Shown here piece after piece: positions 833 through 17,179 of a stretch of DNA of 33,127 nt (position 1 is its first letter; each line of letters begins with the position of its first letter). A model generated the notes under the pieces. It was not told the DNA's origin, did not search any database, and saw only the letters and a program-made list of their open reading frames with translations. Position numbers and translations under genes: made by a program. Location: contig JAJDBK010000036.1 of assembly GCA_029261405.1 (NCBI GenBank), positions 1-33,127 of the forward strand, given 5' to 3'. Source of the DNA: Nitrospinaceae bacterium. Lineage in GTDB: Bacteria; Nitrospinota_A; UBA7883; JAJDBK01.

Positions 833-909
<77 letters not shown>

Positions 910-2771: not shown

Positions 2772-2886
2772 GCCACTCAATGTTCCAGAACATGGTTTTA
2801 TACCAAAAACACCCTCTGGACTTGTTCTTTTTTTCTGGATTGCGCATTATTTCTCTTTTATCAGGTTATTAGCGTATAACCATGCG

Positions 2887-4035
2887 CTATTCCCCTTCTG
2901 AGGCGGAGGTTTCTTGCAAAGGCTCCATCTCACCGACTTCCGGCTCGTTAATTATTCCTCCCCGATAAAATTCCGAGCCACGATAAACCGGATCGAGTTC
3001 CTGCAACGTCACCTTTATCACCGCCGCCACAGGAACCGCCAGCAACAGCCCGATCAGCCCGAAGAACGCTCCGCCGACAAGCAGGGACGCCATTATCGTG
3101 ACAGGATGCAGGCCGACGGCTTTTTCCAGGACTCTTGGTGATATGACAAAACCTTCCAGCGCCTGGGCCATGGAGAAAAGTAGCAGGACCAGAACAGGCT
3201 CCCCCAATCCAGGAAACTTTACCACCGTCAGAATCAGGGCCGGAGCCAGGCCGACTACGGCGGAAAGATATGGAACGACATTAGCCAATCCCGCTATGGC
3301 GCCGATGAGGATTCCCATAGGCGTACCGATAAAAAAAAGCCCTGTGGAGAGGATCACCGCCATGGTCATGGCGACGATCAGTTGACCACGCACGAACGCG
3401 CTCAACACTTCGTCGATTTTTTTAACGAACCCGAAAATCTTCGCCCTCATCCTTGGAGGCGCATATTCACCAGCTCCGGCGACGATATGGTCGAAATCCT
3501 TTAATAGATAGAATGCGGCGACAGGAATGATGAGCATGTTTACGATGGCCAACGCAATTCCCATAACGCTCGATAGCCCGGACCATATCCACTGAAACAG
3601 AGCGTTAGCCACTTTCAGGGGAAGAGTTCCAAGGGCGTTGAATGTTTCAAGGAGTGTTTCTTTGATATCCGCCTCAGCCACCGCCGGTATCGATTCTATA
3701 AAAGGAGTCAGCCGGGCTATTATCGATTCGATATAGCCGGGAACGTTTTTCGCCATCGCCACAATTTGCCCCATGACAAGGGGGCCGACTAACGTGACAA
3801 GAAGCGCAAGCAGGGAAAAAAAGAGGATGAGTAGAAGGACGATGGCGGTTGTTCTGTCTACCCGTTTTCGTTCCAGGGCGTCGATGACAGGATCGAAAAG
3901 ATAGGCTATGCCAAAGGCTATTACAAAGGGGTATAGAACGACCCTTGCCGAATACAAAAGCCAAATCGCCAATAGAAACCCGAGCAGAGCCAAGCCGACC
4001 CTGACATCGGGTCTCGACATAAGATTATCAATCAT
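2887..4035 (-). CDS. AI-2E/PerM family (UPF0118) inner-membrane transporter
   Basis: A 382-residue polytopic membrane protein. It has two hydrophobic segments near the N-terminus (about 12-45), a pair at about 60-90, a long soluble amphipathic stretch (about 90-150), then four or more C-terminal segments including GLANVVPYLSAVVGLAPAL. This is the PF01594 layout. Members have been linked to autoinducer export, Na+/H+ antiport and permease roles, so the substrate cannot be named. The acidic C-terminal tail is hydrophilic. Its ATG overlaps the stop of the upstream secreted-protein gene as ATGA (4032-4035), which implies translational coupling. A weak AT-rich hairpin at 2864-2881 lies just past its stop. 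Confidence 0.9.
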   Translation of the reverse strand: MIDNLMSRPDVRVGLALLGFLLAIWLLYSARVVLYPFVIAFGIAYLFDPVIDALERKRVDRTTAIVLLLILFFSLLALLVTLVGPLVMGQIVAMAKNVPGYIESIIARLTPFIESIPAVAEADIKETLLETFNALGTLPLKVANALFQWIWSGLSSVMGIALAIVNMLIIPVAAFYLLKDFDHIVAGAGEYAPPRMRAKIFGFVKKIDEVLSAFVRGQLIVAMTMAVILSTGLFFIGTPMGILIGAIAGLANVVPYLSAVVGLAPALILTVVKFPGLGEPVLVLLLFSMAQALEGFVISPRVLEKAVGLHPVTIMASLLVGGAFFGLIGLLLAVPVAAVIKVTLQELDPVYRGSEFYRGGIINEPEVGEMEPLQETSASEGE

Positions 4036-4949
4036 TGCGCATCGTCATCGGAATGGACCTCCATGGAATGCTCTTTCCATATTCGGGGTGTCTGTAGTGT
4101 AAGCTCTTTTGCCAGCGCATCGACAGCCGCATTGATCGTGTCAAGACTTCCCTTCAGGGCGTCTTCGAATTCTCCGGTCGCCTCCTGCCCGAAAGCGGCG
4201 AGCATTTTACCTTTGGTCGAGTAGAGCCTGACTCGTGAGGTAGCTTTGACGCTGTTACCCTCTCCGGAAGGCTCCACCTCAACTTTTGTAGTTCCGAAAG
4301 CGAACAGATCTGTCCCGAGTTTGTCGTGCAATTCTACCAGCGCCGAGAGGCTTCCCTCAAATGCCGACACCACCAGTTCGTCCGCTCCGCCTTCCCGAAT
4401 CTCTTTTCTTTGTACCGTAAGGTATCCTCTACTGGAGAACGCCTGCGCCATAATCCGTTCAGACATGGAGTTGAGCAACAGGAAATTTGTATTTGCAAAC
4501 AGCTCCTCGCTCTGTTCGTCCATGATTACCAGCACGTTTGGCAGGACTCGCTTCTTTACCCCTATCCCGACGTTTTCTACAGCGCTCCTGATAGAATCGA
4601 GAAACAGGGTGACCTGCAACCTCACAGTCAGGGTTCCGTTTTCCCTGTCGATGGTCTCTTCCAAAAATTTATAGCTGAATACAAAATCCATCCCTTTGGA
4701 TGCGATCTCTTTGTCGATCTCTTCATCCCGTTCCCGGTTCAGGTCCGGATTAATCAAGCCCCCCACCGCAAGTCTGGCGGCGGTGGTAAAGGCGTTCAGT
4801 TTGGCGTTCTCACGAGCCACTGCGTAGTTTTCATCCAGTATCTCAGCGGTTCCGGTAGCGGGAACGGCTATAAACTCCCCTTCCGGAACGGTCGCCAATG
4901 CGCTCCCCGGAGCAAGAAACAGAGCAAATATCAGAAGAAAAAATCTCAT
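4032..4949 (-). CDS. Secreted protein with FlgT/LPP20-like N-terminal region
   Basis: The mature protein is predicted to be periplasmic. Residues 1-19 form a clear Sec signal peptide ending ALA. After it comes a segment (about 27-65: VPATGTAEI, then an Ala/Arg-rich helix AVARENAKLNAFTTAARLAVG) resembling the start of flagellar assembly protein T and LPP20-type proteins. The remainder (about 90-290) is soluble with no motif I can name. The open frame extends upstream to 5357, but the signal peptide makes ATG 4949 the sensible start (305 residues). A TATACT at 4961-4956 sits only a few bases before this ATG, which could mean a very short leader. It overlaps the downstream permease gene by 4 bases. 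The FlgT relation is tentative. Confidence 0.6.
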   Translation of the reverse strand: MRFFLLIFALFLAPGSALATVPEGEFIAVPATGTAEILDENYAVARENAKLNAFTTAARLAVGGLINPDLNRERDEEIDKEIASKGMDFVFSYKFLEETIDRENGTLTVRLQVTLFLDSIRSAVENVGIGVKKRVLPNVLVIMDEQSEELFANTNFLLLNSMSERIMAQAFSSRGYLTVQRKEIREGGADELVVSAFEGSLSALVELHDKLGTDLFAFGTTKVEVEPSGEGNSVKATSRVRLYSTKGKMLAAFGQEATGEFEDALKGSLDTINAAVDALAKELTLQTPRIWKEHSMEVHSDDDAQ

Positions 4950-5044
4950 CGGTAGAGTATAAACCACTCCCGCAGATGGCGCCCGCTTCTTGATGCCCAT
5001 ATTGAACCTGGAGTCGGGGAGCGTTATGTCGGGCGCCATGCGCC

Positions 5045-5074
5045 TTGACAAAGTCCGCATGGAGCTTGCACAAT
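5045..5074 (+). promoter_or_regulatory. Sigma-70-type promoter for the fumarase genes
   Basis: A perfect TTGACA (5045-5050) is followed after 18 bases by CACAAT (5069-5074, four of six consensus positions). Transcription would start near 5081, about 28 bases before the fumarase alpha start. Confidence 0.45.
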
Positions 5075-5093
5075 CTTTGGAAATTCTATTGAT

Positions 5094-5104
5094 GGAGGTG
5101 ATCC
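5094..5104 (+). promoter_or_regulatory. Full-length Shine-Dalgarno sequence for fumarase alpha
   Basis: GGAGGTGATCC is an 11-base uninterrupted complement of the usual bacterial 16S rRNA 3' tail (GGATCACCTCC). It ends four bases before the ATG at 5109 and fixes that start. It suggests strong initiation. Confidence 0.8.
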
Positions 5105-5108
5105 TGTA

Positions 5109-5948
5109 ATGCGTGAAATAGACGCTTCGGCTATTACCGAAGCTGTTCGTACTATGTCTATGAGTGCGAACTACGACCTTGGCGACGACGTGGTGAAAGC
5201 GTTTGAGCGTGGTCTTGAACAGGAGGAGTCGCCGACAGGTAAAGCGGTCTTCAAGGCTTTGCTCGAAAACTCTAAAATCGCACGAAATGAAAAAGTTCCG
5301 ATGTGTCAGGACACCGGGTTTGCTGTGGTCTTTGTTGAGATCGGGCAGGATGTCCATGTGACGGGGGGGGCGATCCGGGAGGCGGTCAACGCAGGTGTGC
5401 GTAAAGGGTATGAGGAGGGCTACCTTCGTAAATCGATATGTGATCCGTTTACACGAACTAATACAAAAGACAACACACCGGCTGTGGTTTTCACCGAAGT
5501 GGTTGATGGCGCCGGATTAAAAATTACCTTCGCTCCGAAGGGTGGAGGGTCTGAAAACATGGCGAGGGTAACGATGCTGACCCCTTCCGGCGGGAAAGAG
5601 GCAGTGGCCGATTTCATAGTCAACCGGTGTCAGGAAGCCGGTTCGAATCCATGTCCTCCGGTTATTGTCGGGGCGTGTATCGGCGGAACGCCTGAACTGG
5701 CGGCTATGCTGGCCAAAAAAGCTCTCATACGCCCTTTGGGAACGAAAAATCCTGATCCTGAGCTTGCGGAGATGGAGGATCAGCTTCTGGCGAGGATCAA
5801 CAACCTCGGTATGGGGCCGCAAGGTCTTGGGGGGCGTATCTTCGCATTGGGTGTGCATCTGGTGAAACATCCGTGCCACATAGCCACGCTACCGTTGGCG
5901 GTTAACATCTGTTGTCACGCCAGCAGGCACAAGGAGACCGAGTTATGA
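5109..5948 (+). CDS. Class I fumarate hydratase, alpha subunit
   Basis: It is the N-terminal half of the oxygen-sensitive [4Fe-4S] fumarase, which interconverts fumarate and malate. In this two-subunit form alpha and beta are separate genes. The 279 residues match the usual alpha length. Likely cluster ligands are Cys66 (MCQDTG), Cys182 (NPCPPV) and Cys268 or Cys269 near the C-terminus. The KGGGSENM segment (144-151) is also characteristic. The related L-tartrate dehydratase alpha is similar; the adjacent succinate dehydrogenase genes favour fumarase. Its stop overlaps the beta start as ATGA. Confidence 0.92.
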   Translation: MREIDASAITEAVRTMSMSANYDLGDDVVKAFERGLEQEESPTGKAVFKALLENSKIARNEKVPMCQDTGFAVVFVEIGQDVHVTGGAIREAVNAGVRKGYEEGYLRKSICDPFTRTNTKDNTPAVVFTEVVDGAGLKITFAPKGGGSENMARVTMLTPSGGKEAVADFIVNRCQEAGSNPCPPVIVGACIGGTPELAAMLAKKALIRPLGTKNPDPELAEMEDQLLARINNLGMGPQGLGGRIFALGVHLVKHPCHIATLPLAVNICCHASRHKETEL

Positions 5949-6502
5949 GCGAAGTGATAAGGCTTACGACCCCTCTCACAGAAGAAGATGTGGCATCTCT
6001 CAAAGCGGGTGATCAGGTGAGCCTGACCGGCGTTCTCTACACAGCCAGGGACGCCGCCCACAAGAGGCTCGTAGCCCTGCTCGACGAAGGGAAGGAGCTT
6101 CCGTTCGACGCAAAGGGAGCCGTCATCTATTATGTCGGACCGTCACCTGCCAAACCGGGCGCGGTTGTCGGGTCCGCCGGTCCGACCACGAGCTACCGGA
6201 TGGACGCATATTCGGAGCGCATGATGGAGGTCGGCATGAAAGGCATGATCGGCAAAGGGAAAAGAGCCGGTGACGTGGTGGACGCAATGGTCAAACATAA
6301 AGCGGTCTATTTCGCGGCCATAGGCGGGGCGGCGGCCCTGATCGCCCGGTCGATAAAGAAGGTCGATGTCATAGCGTATGAAGACCTCGGCCCGGAGGCT
6401 GTCCGCCGTATGGAGGTGGAGGATTTTAAAGTGGTCGTCATTAACGATACAAACGGCGCCGATCTTTACGAACAGGGGCAGGAGCGGTACCGCAAGGAGT
6501 AA
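5945..6502 (+). CDS. Class I fumarate hydratase, beta subunit
   Basis: It supplies the C-terminal half of the class I fumarase. The family signature GPTTSYRMD is at residues 79-87 and the MIGKGKR loop at 101-107, followed by the GGAAAL segment near 128. I chose ATG 5945 (185 residues) because it overlaps the alpha stop as ATGA and has AAGGAG at 5931-5936. A longer frame from 5912 would run inside alpha and adds residues unlike the family. Alpha and beta are therefore translationally coupled, as expected for obligate partners. Confidence 0.92.
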   Translation: MSEVIRLTTPLTEEDVASLKAGDQVSLTGVLYTARDAAHKRLVALLDEGKELPFDAKGAVIYYVGPSPAKPGAVVGSAGPTTSYRMDAYSERMMEVGMKGMIGKGKRAGDVVDAMVKHKAVYFAAIGGAAALIARSIKKVDVIAYEDLGPEAVRRMEVEDFKVVVINDTNGADLYEQGQERYRKE

Positions 6503-6559
6503 AAGTTATGGAAAGCGGGGCTGGTTTGGTATACGATTAATCTTCGATGGTCTCTTTTT

Positions 6560-6584
6560 CTGGTGATCGACAGGCGGTCATCAG
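6560..6584 (+). other. Hairpin in the gap between fumarase and sdhA
   Basis: CTGGTGATC (6560-6568) pairs with GGTCATCAG (6576-6584) as a nine-base-pair RNA stem with two G-U pairs and a seven-base loop. No T tract follows. It is the only clear structure in the 175-base gap and could be a weak terminator or an intercistronic processing site. Confidence 0.3.
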
Positions 6585-6677
6585 GCTTTGAAATGGACGG
6601 CGCAGTCGGGCGAGAGGGGGTCATACATCCTTGATCTTGAATGCGGAGGCGCCGGGCAATATAGCGAGCGGGGGGTT

Positions 6678-8393
6678 ATGTACTCACACGACGTTGTAAT
6701 AGTGGGGTCTGGTCTTGCAGGTCTCAGGGCCGCCCAGGAGTTGGCGGGCAATCTTGATGTAGCGATAATAACCAAGGTCTATCCGAGCAGAAGCCATTCC
6801 GGCGCCGCTCAGGGTGGTGTAGCCGCCGCCTTGGCGAACATGGACGGAGATTCCATCGAAGCGCATATCTACGATACGGTCAAGGGTTCCGATTTTCTCG
6901 GAGACCAGGACGCCATCGAGATCATGTGTAACGATGCGCCGAGGACCATTTATGAAATGGAACATCTCGGTTGTCCTTTCTCACGAACCGATGAAAACAA
7001 GATAGCCCAGAGGGCTTTCGGCGGACATTCATTCCTTCGCGCTTGTTTTTCGGCGGACAGGACCGGTCACGCGCTCCTTCATACCTTGTTCGAACAGACC
7101 TACAAAATGGGCGGTAAACTTCAGGTCTATTCCGAATGGTATATGACACGTCTTATTGTAGAAGACGGAGTCTGCAAGGGTGTTGTCGCCATGGATATCG
7201 CCACCGGCAGGATGGAGGTCTTTTCCGCCAAGGTGGTTCTTTTCGCTTCCGGTGGATATGGTCGCTCCTTTGAGATAACTTCCAACGCCTACGCAAATAC
7301 TGGTGACGGAGCCATCGCCACTTACCGGGCCGGTCTGCCTTTGCAGGATATGGAGTTCGTTCAGTTCCATCCGACCGGTCTTTATCAGCACGGCATCCTC
7401 CTCTCCGAGGCGGCTCGTGGTGAAGGTGGCTATCTGCTAAACGGTAACGGCGAGCGATTCATGGATAAATACGCTCCCGGCAAGATGGAGCTTGCTCCCC
7501 GTGATATCGTCTCCCGTTCTGAACAGACCGAGATAAACGAAGGGAGGGGAGCCGGTCCCGACAAGGACTATGTACTGCTAGATCTTCGGCATCTTGGTGA
7601 GGCGAAAATACTGGAACGTCTGCCGCAGATCTACCATCTGGCAAAAGATTTCCTCGGAGTCGATGCGGTCACCGACCCTGTACCGACCCAACCTACGGCC
7701 CACTACTCGATGGGTGGCATTCCCACGGATAACGACTGTCAGGTTATCCTGGACGAAACAGGCGCCAAGGTGGAAGGTTTCTTCGCCGCCGGAGAGTGTT
7801 CCTGCGTATCGGTCCACGGCGCCAACCGACTTGGCACCAACTCTCTGTTGGAGGCTCTGGTCTTCGGCAGAAGAGCGGGTAAAAAGATCCTTGAAGCCGC
7901 CTCCACCGCCAAGTCGTCGAGCATCGACGAGAAACGGGAGATCGCGGCTGTCAGGGCCGGTATAGACAAGATCGTAAACACTTCCGCAAAAGAGGAGTTG
8001 CACCCGATCCGCAAGGAACTCAAGAATGTCATGACCTATAAAGCTGGTGTCTACCGTTCGGGTAGTGAGCTTGCCGAGGCGCATAAAAAAGTTACCGAGC
8101 TACAGGAGCGGTTTAAACATGTTCGTGTAGATGATAAGAGAGAAAATTTCAACACGAACATGCTCGAAGCGATAGAGCTTGGTCATATGCTCGAATATTC
8201 GGAACTGATTGTGGCGGGAGCCGAAGCGCGGGAGGAGAGCCGTGGCGCTCACGCCCGCACCGATTTCCCGACACGGGACGACGAGAAATGGCTTAATCAC
8301 ACCATGGCCTTCAGGAAGGGCGATGGCGGATATGAACTGAAATACAGACCGGTGGTCATAACCCGGTTTGAGCCTGAAGAGAGGAAGTACTGA
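6678..8393 (+). CDS. sdhA: Succinate dehydrogenase/fumarate reductase flavoprotein subunit
   Basis: This is the FAD subunit that oxidises succinate to fumarate or does the reverse. The dinucleotide-binding start [10 protein letters not shown] is at residues 8-16. His40 in [11 protein letters not shown] is the expected covalent FAD attachment. QFHPTGL is at 229-235, the catalytic Arg275 in LAPRDIVSR, and AHYSMGG at 341-347. From ATG 6678 it has 571 residues and begins with the FAD fold; a G-rich ribosome-binding site precedes it. An in-frame extension to 6588 would add 30 residues of no family character. There is no twin-arginine signal, so it should face the cytoplasm, unlike exported MfrA-type fumarate reductases. 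It overlaps sdhB by one base (TGATG). Confidence 0.95.
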
Positions 8394-9355
8394 TGTCAAA
8401 CGGCGAAGTGACTTTCATAATCGAACGGTTTGATCCTGAAAAGGATACAGCTCCTTACCCGCAGGAATACAAGGTAATCCTGGAGCCGGGTCAGACACTG
8501 CTCAACTGTCTTAACAATATCAAGTGGACACAGGATCAGACGTTGGCTTACCGCTATTCGTGCGGATCGGCCATTTGCGGATCGTGCGCCATGCGGATCA
8601 ACGGCAAAGCGGTTCTGGCTTGCAAAACCCAGGTCTCCGACTGCGTGAAGGATGGCGTTATAAGGCTCGCTCCCATCGGCAACACTAAAGTTGTTCGCGA
8701 TCTGGTGGTGGATCTGGAGCCGTTCTGGAACGCTCTTAAAAGGGTGAGACCTTATCTGACTCCCGATAGCCAGGACGCGCCAGAGAAAGAGCGGGAGCAG
8801 ACAGCTGAAGAATTTTCCAAAATAGATCCCTCCACAACCTGCATCATGTGCGGCGCCTGTTATTCCGACTGCAACGTTCTGGAAGTGGACAATCAGTTTC
8901 TCGGCCCTGTGGCCCTTGCCAAGGCGCACCGGTTCATCTTCGACTCCCGCGACGGCGGTGGTCATCAGAGACTGACCGAGATATCGGAGACCAACGGCAT
9001 ATGGGACTGCACTCATTGCGGAGAATGCACAACCCGTTGCCCGACCGAGACGAAACCGCTCTCCAGAATCGAAGAGATAAAAGTGAAAGCGATGGCTGAA
9101 GGGCATCACGGTAACGCTGGAGCCCGTCACGTTCTCGGTTTCCGGGAGACTGTCGGGAGACGGGGATTGCTGGACGAAAACTATCTACCGTTAAGAACGG
9201 TCGGTTTTTTCAATATTCCGGGTCTGCTCTCGATTATGCCGGTCGGGTTGAGAATGATGTGGCGTGGCAAGAACCCGCCGATGATTCCCCATTATGTCGA
9301 TAAAGTAGGCGAGGTGAATAACATCTTCGCCCGTTTTGAGGAGTTTCGAAAATGA
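8393..9355 (+). CDS. sdhB: Succinate dehydrogenase/fumarate reductase iron-sulfur subunit (type-E-like)
   Basis: It carries electrons from the flavoprotein to the third subunit. The [2Fe-2S] ligands are Cys57, Cys62, Cys65 and Cys77. Two complete ferredoxin-type motifs follow: Cys150/153/156/160 and Cys206/209/212/216. Canonical SdhB lacks the cysteine at the position of Cys209 and makes a [3Fe-4S] cluster there. The extra cysteine is typical of type-E enzymes with two [4Fe-4S] centres. The 320 residues exceed the usual 240 or so of classical SdhB; the extra length is mainly the tail after residue 240. It overlaps sdhA by one base and sdhE by four. Confidence 0.93.
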   Translation: MSNGEVTFIIERFDPEKDTAPYPQEYKVILEPGQTLLNCLNNIKWTQDQTLAYRYSCGSAICGSCAMRINGKAVLACKTQVSDCVKDGVIRLAPIGNTKVVRDLVVDLEPFWNALKRVRPYLTPDSQDAPEKEREQTAEEFSKIDPSTTCIMCGACYSDCNVLEVDNQFLGPVALAKAHRFIFDSRDGGGHQRLTEISETNGIWDCTHCGECTTRCPTETKPLSRIEEIKVKAMAEGHHGNAGARHVLGFRETVGRRGLLDENYLPLRTVGFFNIPGLLSIMPVGLRMMWRGKNPPMIPHYVDKVGEVNNIFARFEEFRK

Positions 9356-10224
9356 AATACGCCCTTTACACCGGTTGCGTGGCCAAGGGCGCTGGCCGGG
9401 AACTGCTCGCCGCCACATACAAGGCGTGCGAGAAACTTGAGATTGAACTTGACGAAATGACAGATGCGGCCTGCTGTGGCGCCGGTGTGATCGGGGAAGA
9501 CAACCCGATGGTGGCCGACCTGCTTAACGCCCGTACCTACTCCCTTGCCGAAGAGCGCGGCCTTGACATAATGAACATCTGCACCACCTGCCAGGGTGTG
9601 CATGTGAAGACCAGACGTAAAATTGACGCGGACGAGAAATACAAGGCGAGACTGAACACCGAGCTTGAAAAAGAGACCGGTCGGGAATACGCCGGAACCG
9701 TAAAGATAAAACATTTCTACGAGATTCTCCTGCACGATTACGGCTTGGACCGCCTGAAAGAGAAGGTGGTAAAACCGCTTACCGGACTTAAGGTAGCTTC
9801 CTTCTACGGTTGTTACGCCACACGGCCCCCCGAAGTTAACGAACTCAAAAACCCGGACGACCCGGACGAGCTTGAGTCTATCGTGACGGCTCTGGGCGCC
9901 ACACCGGTGAAATACGACGAACGACTGAAATGTTGCGGGTTCCCCATCCTGATGATGAACAAACGAAATTCGATGCAACTCTCCGGCAACGCTCTCTCCG
10001 GAGCGAAAAAAGCGGGAGCCGACATAATGGTTACCCCGTGTCCTCTCTGCCATCTGAACCTTGACGCATACCAGCCGGAGATCGAATCGCAGATAGATCA
10101 GAAACTGGCGTTGCCGATACTGCATATTCCGCAGTTGGTGGCGCTGGCCCTTGGGGTAAGCGAAAAGGAACTGAGGATACAGACCCATATAGTCCGTCCA
10201 GAAGGAGCTCTGGCCCCGGCGTAG
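9352..10224 (+). CDS. sdhE: Type-E succinate:quinone reductase subunit, double-CCG (HdrB-like)
   Basis: It is the membrane-side subunit that replaces the haem b anchor in type-E complexes (SdhE/MfrE). Both cysteine-rich CCG domains are complete. The first has Cys9, Cys41-Cys42, Cys77 and Cys80; the second has Cys154, Cys194-Cys195, Cys230 and Cys233. In heterodisulfide reductase HdrB such motifs bind a noncubane [4Fe-4S] cluster. There is no transmembrane segment, so membrane contact would be by amphipathic helices. The 290 residues fit the family. It overlaps sdhB as ATGA, giving a tight sdhA-sdhB-sdhE unit. The symbol follows type-E usage and is not the E. coli flavinylation factor of the same name. 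Confidence 0.92.
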   Translation: MKYALYTGCVAKGAGRELLAATYKACEKLEIELDEMTDAACCGAGVIGEDNPMVADLLNARTYSLAEERGLDIMNICTTCQGVHVKTRRKIDADEKYKARLNTELEKETGREYAGTVKIKHFYEILLHDYGLDRLKEKVVKPLTGLKVASFYGCYATRPPEVNELKNPDDPDELESIVTALGATPVKYDERLKCCGFPILMMNKRNSMQLSGNALSGAKKAGADIMVTPCPLCHLNLDAYQPEIESQIDQKLALPILHIPQLVALALGVSEKELRIQTHIVRPEGALAPA

Positions 10225-10252
10225 AATAAGGCTTATACATATCGGGTAAAGT

Positions 10253-10279
10253 TCCGCCCCGAAGTCGTTTTGGGGCGGA
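10253..10279 (+). terminator. Hairpin ending the sdhABE unit
   Basis: TCCGCCCC (10253-10260) pairs perfectly with GGGGCGGA (10272-10279) around an 11-base loop, 28 bases past the sdhE stop and 30 bases before the next start. Only a short TTT follows some way downstream, so the terminator call is moderate. Confidence 0.5.
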
Positions 10280-10309
10280 GCCGATCCGGTTTAAATCTCA
10301 GAGGTTTCA

Positions 10310-12418
10310 ATGAGAGGTTTTACCGTCTCGCTTGCGCTGGGCCTTCTGTTTGTTCACACACCATCATTCGCCCAGGACTTCGGCGCGTTAGAGCGGGAAC
10401 TGGGATACCTGCGGGCCGAGACATTTGTTGTCACTGCGTCCCGCACTAAAGAGAGCGTATCCAAATCGGCCGCCTCCATAACCGTAATTACAGCGCGAGA
10501 GATTCGGGAGATGGGCGCCAACACCATATCCGACGTTCTGAATACGGTTCCCGGCATTAACATGACAATGTCGAACAACGGCCTTGAGCTTGTGGATGTA
10601 CGCGGTATCACCACTAACAGTAACGAAAAGATCGCTTTCATGAAGAACGGTGTGCCTACAATGTTCGTTTTCAGCGGTGGTGGCATAAGTTTCTACGAAC
10701 CGATCGACACCATTGAGCGGATCGAAGTGATAAGGGGGCCCGGTTCCGCTCTCTATGGCGCCAACGCCGTCAGCGCCGTGATAAACGTCATAACAAAAGA
10801 TCCAGGGTCGGTGGATGGGGCGACAGCCAAGGCGAGCGTCGGCAGTTTTGGCGCCCAAAGGTATAGTCTTATGTATGGAGGGGAGATAGGGGAATTAAAG
10901 ACCCTGTTTTCCGTATACCATATCGATTCGGACGGATTCAAAGAGACTGTAAACCACGATTCGGTGTCGAATCTTGATCTGCTCCAGGCGCCCCTTGGCG
11001 TGACGCCCTCATCAATGGCGCCTGGCCCGACCAACCTTGAAAACAGATACACCGACGTTGTGTTGAACCTGAAATACGGGAAACTGAGTTTCAACGCCCA
11101 ATACCAGGATTATGACCAGAGGGACTATATAGGGTTCGATTATTCGCTTTCGGACGAAGGGACGCAAAGTCATAAAATTTACCTGCTTGATCTCGGTTTT
11201 GAGACCGAACTTTCCGATGGTATTACCCTGCATCCCCGAATATATCTGAATGGGGGATGGGCCGAGGAGACAGCCGATATCTTCCCGGATGGCGCTACCA
11301 TTACAGCGGAGTCTGGTCCGGCGCTCTACCTGCCGGAAGGGCTTCTTTACGAGGGGGGATTCACCAATGTAAGAACCGGCGCCGATATCCAGATCGACTG
11401 GAAGGCCACCGAATCGAATATTGTCATAGCCGGTCTGGTGGCCGAACGACAGGAGCAGAGCGACGTTACGCTTAATATCAATTTTGATTTCGACGCTTAT
11501 CAGTCCGCTCCCCTGCATGAAGTGGAGCCATGGAACAAAAACGCCACCCGCGATTTCTGGGCGGTCTATCTTGAGGATATATGGGACATCACCAACGATT
11601 TGCGTGTCACCCTTGGTATCAGGAACGATTCGTACAGCGATTTTGGCTCCAGCGTAACTCCGAGGGCCGGGTTGACCTGGGAGTTTTTCGAGGGGCTTGA
11701 TTTCAAGCTGATATATGGCGAGGCTTTTCGGGCGCCTACCTTCTATGAACTTTACACCAACGACCCGTTCAAGTATGTCGCCAATCCCGATCTCGAACCG
11801 GAAAAGGCGAGAACCGTGGAAGCTAGTATCGGAATGGTCTTTACCGAAGATTTTTCCGCGCGATTTACTCTATTTCAGAGCAACTACTCAAACCTTATCT
11901 CTATTGCGCCTCTGGAGGAATTTAGCGAAAAAACCACGTTCAAAAACATAGGTTCAACGAAGTCGGAGGGTTTTGAACTGGAGGCGCTGGCGTATATTTC
12001 CGGGTTGAGTTACATTCGGTTCAACTACACACACCAGAAACCGGTCCTGGAATCGACGGGTGATCCGCTCCCGTTTGTTCCCACCGACATGGCAAACGCC
12101 ATAGTGAATATCAGGTTATCAAAATATCTGAATTTCAACGCCCAGGCGGTGATGAGAGGGTCGGCTAACCGGGAGACGACCGATATTCGGGGCGATATGG
12201 CCGGTTACGGGCTTTTAAACTCCACTCTGACGCTTCAGAACCTGCCGGGAAGATTAAAACCGCTGGAAATTCGACTCTCCGGCTACAACCTTACCGATAC
12301 GAAATACTCATACCCGTCTCCGGTCCTCGAATACGGGGTGGCGAGCCTGCCGGGGGTCTACGAAGACTATCCGGCCGCAGGCGTCAGTTTTACACTGGAG
12401 GCGGAATACACTTTCTGA
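10310..12418 (+). CDS. TonB-dependent outer-membrane receptor
   Basis: It is a gated beta-barrel that imports a scarce ligand using TonB/ExbBD energy. Residues 1-21 are a signal peptide ending SFA. The stretch ETFVVTASR (37-45) leads into the plug (about 45-165), which contains the conserved VIRGPGSALYG and AVINVIT blocks. The rest is barrel, ending in EYTF with the terminal phenylalanine needed for outer-membrane assembly. At 702 residues it is a typical full-length member with no extra signalling domain. The ligand (siderophore, cobalamin, other) cannot be read from sequence. The start has AGAGG upstream. Ten bases separate it from the binding-protein gene that follows. Confidence 0.93.
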   Translation: MRGFTVSLALGLLFVHTPSFAQDFGALERELGYLRAETFVVTASRTKESVSKSAASITVITAREIREMGANTISDVLNTVPGINMTMSNNGLELVDVRGITTNSNEKIAFMKNGVPTMFVFSGGGISFYEPIDTIERIEVIRGPGSALYGANAVSAVINVITKDPGSVDGATAKASVGSFGAQRYSLMYGGEIGELKTLFSVYHIDSDGFKETVNHDSVSNLDLLQAPLGVTPSSMAPGPTNLENRYTDVVLNLKYGKLSFNAQYQDYDQRDYIGFDYSLSDEGTQSHKIYLLDLGFETELSDGITLHPRIYLNGGWAEETADIFPDGATITAESGPALYLPEGLLYEGGFTNVRTGADIQIDWKATESNIVIAGLVAERQEQSDVTLNINFDFDAYQSAPLHEVEPWNKNATRDFWAVYLEDIWDITNDLRVTLGIRNDSYSDFGSSVTPRAGLTWEFFEGLDFKLIYGEAFRAPTFYELYTNDPFKYVANPDLEPEKARTVEASIGMVFTEDFSARFTLFQSNYSNLISIAPLEEFSEKTTFKNIGSTKSEGFELEALAYISGLSYIRFNYTHQKPVLESTGDPLPFVPTDMANAIVNIRLSKYLNFNAQAVMRGSANRETTDIRGDMAGYGLLNSTLTLQNLPGRLKPLEIRLSGYNLTDTKYSYPSPVLEYGVASLPGVYEDYPAAGVSFTLEAEYTF

Positions 12419-12428
12419 TAATACCGGT

Positions 12429-13271
12429 ATGAAGATAAAACTTGCGCGATGGTTGTCGGGCGGGATTCCTCCGGTTCTTCCGCTACTGATGGCGGGGACT
12501 CTTCTGGCCCTGTTCGCCACGGTGGCCTTATCCCTTAACCAGGCCATCTATTATTACAACCCTGAAATAAACGTAAATAACTACGCCTCCCTGAAAGTCG
12601 AGTTCGACAAGAATCTCAGGGTGGCCGGTGGTTATGAATTTCAGCCATTTTCCGAGATCGACACATTCGAGAAATTCATCTCCGAGAAGAAGAGCGGTCT
12701 GTTGTTGCTAAGTAGCTGGCACTTTACACTGTTGCGAAAAAAACTCGCCATCGAACCACTTCTGGTGGGAAGGGTTGGCGATAAATCGACCTACAGAAAG
12801 GTGTTGGTCGGTAACAAGTCGATGACAAACCTAGAAAAACTGAGGGGCGCTACCATCGCCACAGCCGGAAGTAAACGATTCTCCAGAAACATGTTAAAGG
12901 CGATGTTAGGAGAGGAGAACTCAGATATCGCCGATTCGGTTATCTTTCTGGTTGCCCCGAAAGATATCGACGCTCTGCTTGCCATGCAGTTCGGTCTGGC
13001 CCAGGCGGCCCTCGGATCGGAGATGGCGCTTAACGCCGTGGGGGAGATAAACAACCGGTTTCGTGATTCGATCAACATCCTTCTGAAAAGTGACGAACTG
13101 CTGTTGCAGATAGTCGCAGGATTCGGCCAGCAAGGGCTGAATGAAAAGGTAATGATAAGTATAATGGAGAAATTCGGGGGTTCCAAAGAGGGGGGCAACG
13201 CCCTGCAAATGATAGGTCTTGACGGTTTCACAAAGATCGGGAAAACGGAAATGGATATCCTGGACCGATGA
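12429..13271 (+). CDS. PhnD/SsuA-like substrate-binding protein with N-terminal membrane anchor
   Basis: A single hydrophobic segment (about 14-36) is followed by a periplasmic binding-protein fold of the PhnD/transferrin-like group. Features are an aromatic-rich stretch (SSWHFTLL near 95), LEKLRGATIATAGSKRFSR (lobe entry, near 134) and an LAMQFGLAQAALGS segment near 185. Such proteins bind phosphonates, sulfonates or other small oxyanions. Here the hydrophobic segment looks like an uncleaved anchor and not a signal peptide. No cognate permease or ATPase is present. Its stop overlaps the next start (13268-13271). The ribosome-binding site is weak, suggesting readthrough from the receptor gene. 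The ligand is unknown. Confidence 0.72.
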   Translation: MKIKLARWLSGGIPPVLPLLMAGTLLALFATVALSLNQAIYYYNPEINVNNYASLKVEFDKNLRVAGGYEFQPFSEIDTFEKFISEKKSGLLLLSSWHFTLLRKKLAIEPLLVGRVGDKSTYRKVLVGNKSMTNLEKLRGATIATAGSKRFSRNMLKAMLGEENSDIADSVIFLVAPKDIDALLAMQFGLAQAALGSEMALNAVGEINNRFRDSINILLKSDELLLQIVAGFGQQGLNEKVMISIMEKFGGSKEGGNALQMIGLDGFTKIGKTEMDILDR

Positions 13272-14182
13272 AAAAAGCAATGGGGCTCCTCCTGATTGTA
13301 TTCTCCTTATCCTTGTATGGAGGAACGCAATCATCCCACGGAAAAATCCTTATCCTCAACTCCGATAAGTCGGTGGAAAAATACGCCCTGGTGGAGAAGG
13401 CATTCCGGGCCGATATCGACGGTGAGATATCTACCCTTGATCTGGGTTTGAAGTTTATCGACTACGGTAAGGTAGCCGAAGAGATCCTGGTGGAGGATCC
13501 GGACCTTATCTTCTGCATCGGCTCCAAAGCTTACCTTCTCGCCCACAAATTCGGGGGAAAACGAAATATTGTTTTCGCGCTGGCCCTGAACTGGCGCAGG
13601 TTCGAGCTGACAGACAGAACGTATGGAATATCCCATGAGTTAAACCGGCTCTCGGAGCTAACCATGTATCGTTATCTTTTTCCAGGCTTATCGAGCGTTG
13701 GTGTGGTTTACGGCCCGAAATTCAGCGAAGAGGCGGTGGAGCGTATGGTCGAAGATGGCAAAGCTGTCGGTGTCAAGGTTGTCCGGTTGCCCATCACAGG
13801 TCATGAAGAGTTAGTTACAGCCCTGACAATAGTAGCCGGGCGGACTGACGCTCTTGTCCTGATTCCCGACCCGGTGGCGCTTGCGGACAAAAAATCCGCC
13901 ATAACCATATTCGAAAAACTTGACAAGGCTCGCATACCGGTTTTTGCATATGACAGGCTCTTCTTCAAATACGGAGCGTTATTGTCCATATCCCCTGACA
14001 TACCAACGGTCGGCAGACAAGCGGCCCGTCTTGCGAAAAATGTGCTTTCCGGCAAAAAGATCGATATGAAGATCGAATACCCGGCCGGCTCCCGAATTTC
14101 GCTCGACGTAAACAAAACCACCGAATATGGCGTTGAACTTAACTCCATGGCCTTGTCATCGGTCAACGAGATCATCAGGTGA
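13268..14182 (+). CDS. ABC_sub_bind-type periplasmic substrate-binding protein
   Basis: The 304-residue protein starts with a Sec signal peptide (about 1-25). It then shows the two-lobe layout of the PF04392 group: ILILNSDKS at the start, DPDLIFCIGSKA near 80, VGVVYGPKFSE near 142, DALVLIPDP near 194 and IPVFAYDRLFFKYGALLSIS near 223. Relatives are sometimes fused to, or encoded beside, sensor proteins as well as transporters. It overlaps the upstream PhnD-like gene by ATGA and the downstream comF by GTGA, so all three are probably co-translated. No ABC permease or ATPase adjoins it, so its partner is unknown and a sensory role is possible. Confidence 0.82.
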   Translation: MKKAMGLLLIVFSLSLYGGTQSSHGKILILNSDKSVEKYALVEKAFRADIDGEISTLDLGLKFIDYGKVAEEILVEDPDLIFCIGSKAYLLAHKFGGKRNIVFALALNWRRFELTDRTYGISHELNRLSELTMYRYLFPGLSSVGVVYGPKFSEEAVERMVEDGKAVGVKVVRLPITGHEELVTALTIVAGRTDALVLIPDPVALADKKSAITIFEKLDKARIPVFAYDRLFFKYGALLSISPDIPTVGRQAARLAKNVLSGKKIDMKIEYPAGSRISLDVNKTTEYGVELNSMALSSVNEIIR

Positions 14183-14916
14183 CTTTTATAAAGGGAATCG
14201 TAAGGTTTGCAGGTTTAATCTGGCCTGAAAAATGCCTGACCTGTCCTGAGTCTTCAGTAGTCCGCTTTCCTGGACGTATGTGTCCTGATTGTGTGAAGAG
14301 TGTAAAAAAGATCCAGGTGAACACCTGCTCTGTATGTGGTGTGGGTCTTGAGTTCGAGTACGAAATTGAGACGGGTGATAAATACAGGTGTGGCGATTGT
14401 CGCCTTAATCCCCCGCCTTTTGAAGAAGCCATGTTCGCTCTTCGATACGACGGGTCTGTGCGGAGCCTTGTTCACAGCCTGAAATACAATTCAGAGCGGA
14501 GCGTCGCGCCTGTTCTGGCGCAACTGGGGGAGGATCGACTCGTTCCGTTTATCTCACGCTGGCCGGAGGCGGTGGTGATACCCGTTCCTTTGGCGCGAAG
14601 CAAACTTTTCTCCAGAGGGTACAACCCGTCATATCTGCTGGCGCGATCCCTTTGCGAAAAGAGTGGCGCCAAAGTGACGGAGGGGGCGCTCAGGAGAACG
14701 AGACCGACAAAACCGCAATTCAACCTCAACAGAAAAGAGAGACTGAAAAATGTCCGTGGCGCGTTTGCGGTTCATAACCCGAGTGCAATAAAAGGAAAGA
14801 CTGTTATTGTGTTCGACGATATCTACACCACAGGCGCAACGGTTATAGAGTGTTGCAAGGTTATTAACAGGGAAAAACCGGAGAAAGTTTTCGTTGTCAC
14901 CTTGTGCCGCGCATAG
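14179..14916 (+). CDS. comF: ComF family phosphoribosyltransferase-like protein
   Basis: ComF proteins act in DNA uptake or recycling during transformation; the catalytic role is uncertain. Eight cysteines in four pairs (19/22, 35/38, 50/53, 71/74) form the N-terminal zinc-binding part. The phosphoribosyltransferase half has IPVPLARSKLFSRGYN (about 133-148) and the PRPP loop VIVFDDIYTTGAT (about 209-221). The 245 residues are standard. The start is a GTG overlapping the upstream stop as GTGA; no in-frame ATG lies close by. Its place at the end of a receptor/binding-protein operon is unusual and may only reflect transcriptional convenience. Confidence 0.9.
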   Translation: MTFIKGIVRFAGLIWPEKCLTCPESSVVRFPGRMCPDCVKSVKKIQVNTCSVCGVGLEFEYEIETGDKYRCGDCRLNPPPFEEAMFALRYDGSVRSLVHSLKYNSERSVAPVLAQLGEDRLVPFISRWPEAVVIPVPLARSKLFSRGYNPSYLLARSLCEKSGAKVTEGALRRTRPTKPQFNLNRKERLKNVRGAFAVHNPSAIKGKTVIVFDDIYTTGATVIECCKVINREKPEKVFVVTLCRA

Positions 14917-15067: not shown

Positions 15068-17179
15068 ATGGTCGCTAAGAGGTCGATAAGGGCGACGATC
15101 TACGCCATTCTTGGCCTTATATTTCTTGTGGTGTTCATCTCCGGCGGAACAATCATCTTGTCGTTGCAGAAAGCGGACCCGGACGCGGATATTATCGACG
15201 CTTTGGGCAGACAGCGAATGTTGTCCCAGGCCATGGGTAAATCAATTCTCGGTTATGACGCCGACCGGAGGAAATTCAAGACCCTCAGGAACAAGGCCAT
15301 CTCTCTGGATCAGTATGTCACTCATATGCGGGCGGTTTACACCCAATACATCATCGGGGTTATCAAGAAGACCGATATAGACATATCGATGACCCCGAAA
15401 GATGATGCGCATCTGGCGCTCCCATACCCCGCCACGTTCACACGTCTGGTAAATAACCGGTTTGCAAAACAGGTGGCCGAGACAGGTGGGGATATCTCAG
15501 TCGATATTATCGCCACCAAACCGATCAATCCGGACAAGGGGCTCGTAACGGAAATTGACAGGAGAGCGACCGAATTTCTGTATGAAAATCGGGACGAGGT
15601 CTATTTTGAGCCATCCGAGGAGAATGGCCTGTTCTATCTTGTTTTCTATACCGTAGACCGCGCCACTGTCGAGGCGTGTGTGTCGTGCCACAACAGCTTT
15701 AATGCGGATGCGAACTACAAGATAGGTGATGTTCTCGGTTTCAGGAAATACAAGGTTCTGTTTAACGATGATATCTCCGCCGGGAAGGCCGAACTTGAGC
15801 CTAGCATCGACGAATACGAGGCGGCCAAAGCGATGTTCTCGCAGACACTTTCAGCAATGAAATACGGTGGAAAGTTCCCAACAGATATGCAACTTTCCAA
15901 ATACGCTGATGTCGATAAAATCGAAGACGAAACGATCCAGAAAAAGATTGATGAAGTTTCAGGCAAGTTCAAGCAGCTCACGGAAACCGCCACATCCCTG
16001 ACCTCAGCTGGTGAGAGCGCCTATACCGGAAAATTGCGCCGCAGGATTATCGCGCAGTCGAACGAACTGCGGAAACTGAGCAACGATGTCGTCCATCTTT
16101 TCACAAACCGGGCCAGAGGGAACCAGAGAAACATCGAAATCGCAGTCCATACCAGCGGTGTTTTTGTCCTGCTGATTATAATTGTGGCGGTTTACCTCTT
16201 CAACCGGGAGGTTATTGTGCCGATAAAATCCCTTACCGAGACCATCGGGTTCATCGACTCAAGCTCCGACCTTAACCAGAGGATAGAGATCAGGAGCCAT
16301 AACAACGAGATAGGCAAGGCGGGACTCGCCTTCAACAAAATGCTCGACAAGTTCCAGTCGATTATCGGAAACATGGCCGAGTCGGCCGAACATTTGGCGG
16401 TGGCCACTACCGAACTTTCAGCCACTACCCTCGAAAACGCGGGGCAGGCCAAAACCCAGCAGGGTATGGTCTCGGAAGTGGCGTTTACCGTAGAGCGGAT
16501 CAACAGCGCCATATCGGACATAGCCAAAAACGCCAACAGGGTAACCAAAACATCTCTGGAGACTAAAAGACAGGCGGCCGAAAGCGGTGAAGTGATTGAC
16601 CGGAGCGGTAAGGCGATAAGCGAACTATCGGATCAGTCCAAAAAGATCGGAGGCATCCTTGATGTTATCGAAGATATCGCCAAAAAGACCGATCTGCTGG
16701 CGATAAACGCCGCTATCGAAGCGGCCAACGCGGGACATCAGGGACACGGTTTCGCTGTTGTGGCCGACGAAGTAAGGAAACTTGCCGAGCGGACAACCCT
16801 GGCTACAAACGAGATCAGCGGTATTATCCAGAAGATTCAGGTCTATACCGATGACGTAGTTCAGTCGATGAAACTGTCGAGTGACGCAATGTCAAAGATC
16901 ATCGTCGATACCACCAAGGTTGATAAGATGGTCGAACAGATAGCGTCTTCGGCGGAGAATCAGGCCAATTTCGTAAATGCGGCGGTTGGCAGTGTCAGGA
17001 TAATCAAGGAATTAAGCGAAGGTTTTTCCAACGCTTCTGACCAGACACAGACGGTGGCGGAAAGCATAAGCAGTCAGTCCAACTATCTGCAGGACGTGGT
17101 CGATCAGTTCAATATCGGCAATAAACATCATGACCATACCGACGCTTTCGATAGCGCGTTTAACATGGATGACGATTGA
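15068..17179 (+). CDS. Methyl-accepting chemotaxis protein with a haem c-type (CxxCH) sensor region
   Basis: The 703-residue receptor has a transmembrane helix at about 11-33, a periplasmic sensor to about 359 and a second helix at about 360-379. HAMP follows (about 380-432), then the cytoplasmic signalling coiled coil with the hairpin tip at about 542-575 (LLAINAAIEAANAG, FAVVADEVRKLAERT). The sensor begins with a PilJ-like DALGRQRMLSQAMGK motif (44-58). It contains CVSCH at 204-208, the covalent haem signature, within a DUF3365/Tll0287-like context. Redox, oxygen or NO sensing is therefore likely. The tip reads GHQGHG instead of the usual GEQGRG. The gene has a G-rich ribosome-binding site (15054-15059). 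No cheW/cheA is adjacent. Confidence 0.93.
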   Translation: MVAKRSIRATIYAILGLIFLVVFISGGTIILSLQKADPDADIIDALGRQRMLSQAMGKSILGYDADRRKFKTLRNKAISLDQYVTHMRAVYTQYIIGVIKKTDIDISMTPKDDAHLALPYPATFTRLVNNRFAKQVAETGGDISVDIIATKPINPDKGLVTEIDRRATEFLYENRDEVYFEPSEENGLFYLVFYTVDRATVEACVSCHNSFNADANYKIGDVLGFRKYKVLFNDDISAGKAELEPSIDEYEAAKAMFSQTLSAMKYGGKFPTDMQLSKYADVDKIEDETIQKKIDEVSGKFKQLTETATSLTSAGESAYTGKLRRRIIAQSNELRKLSNDVVHLFTNRARGNQRNIEIAVHTSGVFVLLIIIVAVYLFNREVIVPIKSLTETIGFIDSSSDLNQRIEIRSHNNEIGKAGLAFNKMLDKFQSIIGNMAESAEHLAVATTELSATTLENAGQAKTQQGMVSEVAFTVERINSAISDIAKNANRVTKTSLETKRQAAESGEVIDRSGKAISELSDQSKKIGGILDVIEDIAKKTDLLAINAAIEAANAGHQGHGFAVVADEVRKLAERTTLATNEISGIIQKIQVYTDDVVQSMKLSSDAMSKIIVDTTKVDKMVEQIASSAENQANFVNAAVGSVRIIKELSEGFSNASDQTQTVAESISSQSNYLQDVVDQFNIGNKHHDHTDAFDSAFNMDDD

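Follow-up and report, generated by a model that had tools for sequence, protein, structure and literature searches.

Genes and protein families at the locus

We analyzed a window of 33,127 nt from a Nitrospinaceae bacterium (contig JAJDBK010000036.1 of assembly GCA_029261405.1), which is the whole of contig C36 of a 3.27-Mb genome assembly with 81 contigs that is 99.5% complete. Our subject is a triad of plus-strand genes in this window that encode a TonB-dependent outer-membrane receptor (TBDR; positions 10310–12418, 702 aa), a PhnD-fold periplasmic binding protein (PhnD-like; 12429–13271, 280 aa) and an ABC_sub_bind periplasmic binding protein (13268–14182, 304 aa). ORF calls and Pfam searches bear out this row as proposed in an earlier sequence-only reading, in coordinates, shared strand and domains, including the four-base overlap of the two binding-protein genes (13268 versus 13271). 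The receptor has the plug and β-barrel of TonB-dependent receptors (75 and 156 bits), and the binding proteins match Phosphonate-bd (PF12974, 33.7 bits at a cut-off of 27) and PF04392 (62.3 bits), respectively.

The TBDR and PhnD-like genes are separated by 10 bp, and a comF-like phosphoribosyltransferase gene (14179–14916, plus strand; double zinc ribbon and PRTase domains in Pfam), a bystander, follows the ABC_sub_bind gene with a second 4-bp overlap, as the sequence-only reading had noted. After a further 151 bp, a methyl-accepting chemotaxis protein (MCP) is encoded on the same strand (15068–17179; HAMP, MCPsignal and Tll0287-like domains in Pfam). No ABC permease or ATPase was detected among the 25 other window ORFs scanned, again in agreement with that reading. 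Matches in a promoter and terminator scan did not rise above those in shuffled sequences.

The PhnD-like proteins form a distinct family, marked in the alignment by the signatures IY[FY]YNPE..[IV]NN and PKDIDAL. An AlphaFold model of the window protein (pLDDT 87.5) shows a two-lobed binding protein whose best structural matches include ArrX, BstB, XAC2383 (5ub3/5ub7) and AioX; of these, ArrX, AioX and XAC2383 function in signaling and BstB binds sterols. Whether this protein is held by an uncleaved anchor, as had been suggested, is doubtful, because ordinary signal peptides precede the conserved IY[FY]YNPE start in its aligned relatives and the window copy might itself be cleaved, at VALS|L. 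Profile comparison of the two binding-protein families gave a weak N-terminal match alone, which we did not count as homology.

The TBDR is the probable entry gate for the ligand. All curated ligand-specific NCBIfam TBDR models score far under their cut-offs for the window receptor and hence name no ligand, Pfam detects no STN signaling domain at its N-terminus, and FecIR was not found among the window ORFs. The Ser-Thr-Ser oxyanion motif (S[TNS]S[GA]) occurs in one of 54 PhnD-like family members, whereas the two true PhnD proteins encoded in the host genome both have it; with the motif missing in 53 members, a phosphonate-like ligand appears unlikely by this motif test alone. An Rfam scan over seven loci revealed no riboswitch that would name a ligand, its sole match being a tRNA. 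The annotations "phosphonate" and "ABC substrate-binding" in genomes that carry these families together are likely wrong as to function.

Conserved neighborhoods and a common sensor domain

The two PhnD-like proteins were first searched against 84,980 species genomes, which yielded 16 loci, found in Scalindua, Kuenenia and other Brocadiaceae, Methylobacter, Methylomonas, Oceanospirillaceae, Oleiphilaceae and one odd metagenome-assembled genome. Profile searches recovered the family in 34 of 251 genomes of the order Methylococcales, 10 of 75 in the class of Kuenenia and 2 of 369 drawn from Gammaproteobacteria, one of the latter being the query genome. None of the 23 other genomes of the window's own phylum carries it, and a plasmid search with the PhnD-like protein gave no match; its distribution is rare and patchy.

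The host genome holds a paralogous locus on contig C17, with genes for a TBDR (5661–7688), a PhnD-like protein (7713–8567; 43% identical to that of the window) and an ABC_sub_bind protein (8525–9532), and a chemoreceptor gene that starts 3 bp later. Residues 1–205 of this C17 MCP are similar to the N-terminal sensors that linked kinases carry in other phyla (best BLAST hit 41% identity, E 3e-48), and divergent sensors from Oleiphilaceae are still 28–30% identical (E about 1e-16). The AlphaFold model of the sensor (pLDDT 83) shows two long helices around a Cache/PAS-like domain and resembles the Cache domains of the sensors WalK, CitA and DcuS in a structure search; we call the sensor single-Cache-like. 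The outputs attached to it comprise plain histidine kinase cores, hybrids that have a single receiver or two, Hpt-containing phosphorelays, phosphorelays that end in GGDEF (eight cases, with HK-REC-REC-HPT-REC-GGDEF as one architecture), SpoIIE-type phosphatases (four) and an MCP (one).

Neighborhoods were counted at 49 non-duplicate loci from anammox planctomycetes, Methylococcales and Oceanospirillales-type bacteria; two further loci (L120 and L122) that hold all four parts were excluded on ORF-calling grounds. The sequence-only reading was to be given up if the three genes proved unlinked in relatives, but the linkage is kept: an ABC_sub_bind gene adjoins the PhnD-like gene at every locus (49/49), and a TBDR gene lies within 8 kb at 39. 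The common sensor domain is encoded within 6 kb at 36 of the 49, C17 included, and directly downstream at 31 (gap −19 to +145 bp). Such linkage of binding protein and receptor, together with their co-occurrence in genomes, characterizes solute-binding-protein-dependent receptors; at the window locus it is missing, the sensor being on another contig. No ABC transporter ATPase was found near the 49 loci, as the two apparent ATPases look like non-transporter proteins, one SMC-sized (1207 aa, judged by size) and the other ABC-F-like (555 aa). Pairwise distances of the PhnD-like proteins, ABC_sub_bind proteins and sensors correlate with r of 0.87–0.89, values that are uncorrected for the species tree.

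Co-occurrence of binding protein and sensor extends beyond physical linkage. Across Methylococcales and the class of Kuenenia, the sensor is present in 43 of 44 genomes with a PhnD-like protein versus 4 of 282 without one. The corresponding counts are 33/34 versus 3/217 in the 251 Methylococcales genomes (Fisher p 1e-36) and 10/10 versus 1/65 in the class of Kuenenia (Fisher p 1e-11), with p-values that take no account of shared ancestry. The sensor was found in 26 of 26 carriers tested, several of which have two pairs and two sensors, and genomes whose pair has no linked sensor encode it elsewhere. For example, the lone Methylobacter sensor gene adjoins a siroheme-synthase-like gene, a small cytochrome c gene and a gene for a 203-aa protein (names read from the sequence), and at three other loci (L105–L107) PhnD-like, ABC_sub_bind, sensor and TBDR genes stand together at that same siroheme-synthase/cytochrome c place. 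Thus, loci without linkage seem to have arisen from linked ones, or the two states to be interchangeable. At one locus (L171) a linked case is hidden by a broken contig.

Some neighborhoods contain variant arrangements. One locus (L179, ~2800–9965) encodes an ABC_sub_bind protein, a sensor-kinase-GGDEF protein and a TonB receptor without a recognized PhnD-like gene. At another (L099, 379–4278), a histidine kinase with fused NMT1 and SBP_bac_3 binding domains adjoins the kinase of the module. Proteins with two ABC_sub_bind stretches are encoded downstream of the module in L115 (11829–13832) and L117 (2–2149), where they adjoin SpoIIE/GAF and anti-sigma-kinase-like genes, a possible partner-switching output.

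Relation to known systems

The closest known kind of system is that of the solute-binding-protein-dependent receptors, such as AioX-AioS, ArrX and XAC2383. In AioX-AioS, ArrX and ArxX, arsenic oxyanions are sensed by a PhnD-like binding protein and a histidine kinase (PMC5908839). The genes described here share with AioX and ArrX the PhnD fold, these two being among the top structural matches, and the linkage of a binding-protein gene to a sensor kinase gene. In contrast to AioX/ArrX, they always include an ABC_sub_bind protein and usually a linked TonB receptor, and their sensor is joined to several outputs. Unlike AioX, which has Cys106 in its pocket, the PhnD-like alignment has no invariant cysteine, and a sequence-profile comparison of the family with the AioX and ArrX structures gave no match.

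XAC2383 of Xanthomonas citri, a binding protein that pairs with the diguanylate cyclase XAC2382, is likewise a PhnD-like periplasmic protein with structures (5ub3/5ub7) among the best matches, but sequence identity is 12–14%; to our knowledge it has neither an ABC_sub_bind partner nor a TonB receptor. BstB is a sterol-binding protein of Methylococcus (PMC10942540). It shares the PhnD fold and the occurrence in Methylococcales, and is the best NCBIfam match of the window PhnD-like protein, but the score is 20.1 bits against an equivalog cut-off of 350, and Bst genes adjoin sterol synthesis genes whereas those of the module adjoin sensors. Coupling of an outer-membrane receptor to signaling recalls the FecA/FecR/FecI transducers; the TBDR here, however, lacks STN, and its signal would be relayed by soluble binding proteins and received by a Cache domain rather than by an anti-sigma factor. 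TrpX-type transporters have the PF04392 fold in common with the window ABC_sub_bind protein, which reaches 46 bits against their cut-off of 390 and has no permease or ATPase neighbors.

Proposed signaling route and its alternatives

We regard the window triad, with a probability of roughly three in four, as one of two copies of a conserved sensory module in which paired binding proteins act on a Cache-type receptor. The TBDR would carry the ligand across the outer membrane, and in the periplasm the PhnD-like and/or the ABC_sub_bind protein, which are always paired, would bind it. The loaded pair would then dock on a membrane receptor at its single-Cache-like domain in the periplasm, and the receptor's cytoplasmic output, which varies by organism (histidine kinase, phosphorelay, phosphorelay-GGDEF, SpoIIE phosphatase or MCP), would respond. 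A role of the binding proteins in signaling instead of transport, as the sequence-only reading had proposed, is supported at the level of the gene family by the neighborhoods, by co-occurrence and by the lack of transporter ATPases nearby.

Several points weigh against this view. No sensor gene accompanies the window copy, and the genome has only one, although the assembly might lack another. The linkage of the TBDR is looser than the pairing of the binding proteins, and TBDRs of different loci score from ~200 to 1025 bits against one profile, so that the receptor partner is evidently variable. Of the characterized pairs of a binding protein and a kinase, 10 of 11 are gene-linked, and of those with a chemoreceptor, 3 of 11, but for three binding proteins of P. 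aeruginosa encoded near sensor kinases there is no evidence of kinase activation (PMC11113362). The case for signaling by the module rests on more than proximity.

Ordinary uptake, in which the pair would deliver its ligand to an ABC permease and ATPase encoded elsewhere and the linked kinases would merely regulate that uptake, is decidedly unlikely in our view. Both binding-protein families are ABC-transporter families in Pfam, and the genome has true phosphonate-type PhnD genes on contigs C1, with an ATPase and a permease-like ORF, and C5. A co-regulated permease/ATPase pair elsewhere in the genome had been named as an outcome that would speak against signaling. This was checked in part: the PhnD-ATPase-permease set on C1 was found, but its PhnD belongs to a different family that gives no profile alignment with the PhnD-like proteins, whose profile recovers neither the C1 nor the C5 protein even at E 10. 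A cognate permease and ATPase, as expected of an ABC importer, were seen neither in the window nor near the 49 relatives; the genome was not searched for a permease that could serve the PF04392 protein from an unlinked locus. Moreover, regulation of uptake alone would not be expected to give invariant pairing with one sensor domain, chemotaxis outputs included.

The window copy has lost its sensor or shares one; comF occupies the position that the sensor gene takes in most relatives and the genome has two PhnD-like/ABC_sub_bind pairs for the one module sensor gene on C17. The same facts would fit a decaying or repurposed duplicate that no longer signals, which we consider improbable: all three window ORFs are intact and keep the residues invariant in alignments of their families, and loci without a sensor gene are frequent where the genome encodes the sensor at another place. 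In a tree built from the concatenated proteins, whose deeper nodes are weak, the window pair groups with the second copies of Kuenenia-type genomes (support 0.79) and the C17 pair falls elsewhere. The window pair is thus not a recent duplicate of the C17 pair and has long been retained.

Signaling to the MCP 0.9 kb downstream, which the sequence-only reading had offered as a possible recipient, is very unlikely. This MCP is close by and on the same strand, but comF and the 151-bp gap stand between it and the pair, and BLAST and profile comparison find no match between its sensor and that of the module. Its sensor, with a PilJ-like P-box-like stretch (DALGRQRMLSQ) and a Tll0287-like domain that holds CVSCH, looks self-sufficient and suggests a c-type heme redox or gas sensor. 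Judged by motifs, no MCP of this Tll0287/PilJ kind stands beside the relatives.

Because there are two pairs and one sensor, the window pair is intact and old, and the downstream MCP has a dissimilar sensor, we judge it likeliest, at about balanced odds, that the window pair acts on the C17 MCP in trans, so that a second ligand would elicit a chemosensory response. The alternatives are the downstream MCP, loss of signaling and a kinase encoded on contig C72. The C72 locus (5009–10395) encodes in a row, without a PhnD-like gene, an ABC_sub_bind protein, a TBDR (34% identical to that of the window) and a hybrid histidine kinase with a weak CHASE8 match; profile comparison detects no significant homology between the kinase's sensor and the module sensor. 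The three PF04392 proteins of the genome (C36, C17 and C72) each adjoin a TonB receptor, and the C72 locus may represent a second, related sensing arrangement.

The sequence-only reading had singled out the triad as a candidate for an undescribed system. In part this holds, as we did not find the module in the literature, which is weak evidence because the search covered open-licence papers alone; the principle of a binding protein acting on a receptor is already known. What is apparently undescribed is the constant association of two unlike binding proteins with a single sensor, together with a TonB receptor and swappable outputs. With confidence and doubt about equal, we suggest an undescribed class of outer-membrane-coupled sensing, in which a relay of two binding proteins, supplied by a TonB receptor, drives a dedicated Cache-type sensor, outputs swap between chemotaxis, phosphorelay, c-di-GMP and PP2C partner switching, and pairs acting in trans share a receptor. 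TonB receptors are commonly taken as nutrient gates; such a class would add a further signaling route for them beside FecIR-type transduction, and anammox bacteria, methanotrophs and others would monitor a specific molecule to direct their swimming, c-di-GMP or gene expression. The module offers natural experiments in that its one sensor occurs with outputs of five kinds.

Elsewhere in the window, a phage integrase family gene lies at the start of the contig (148–801), near a tRNA gene (836–909, minus strand).

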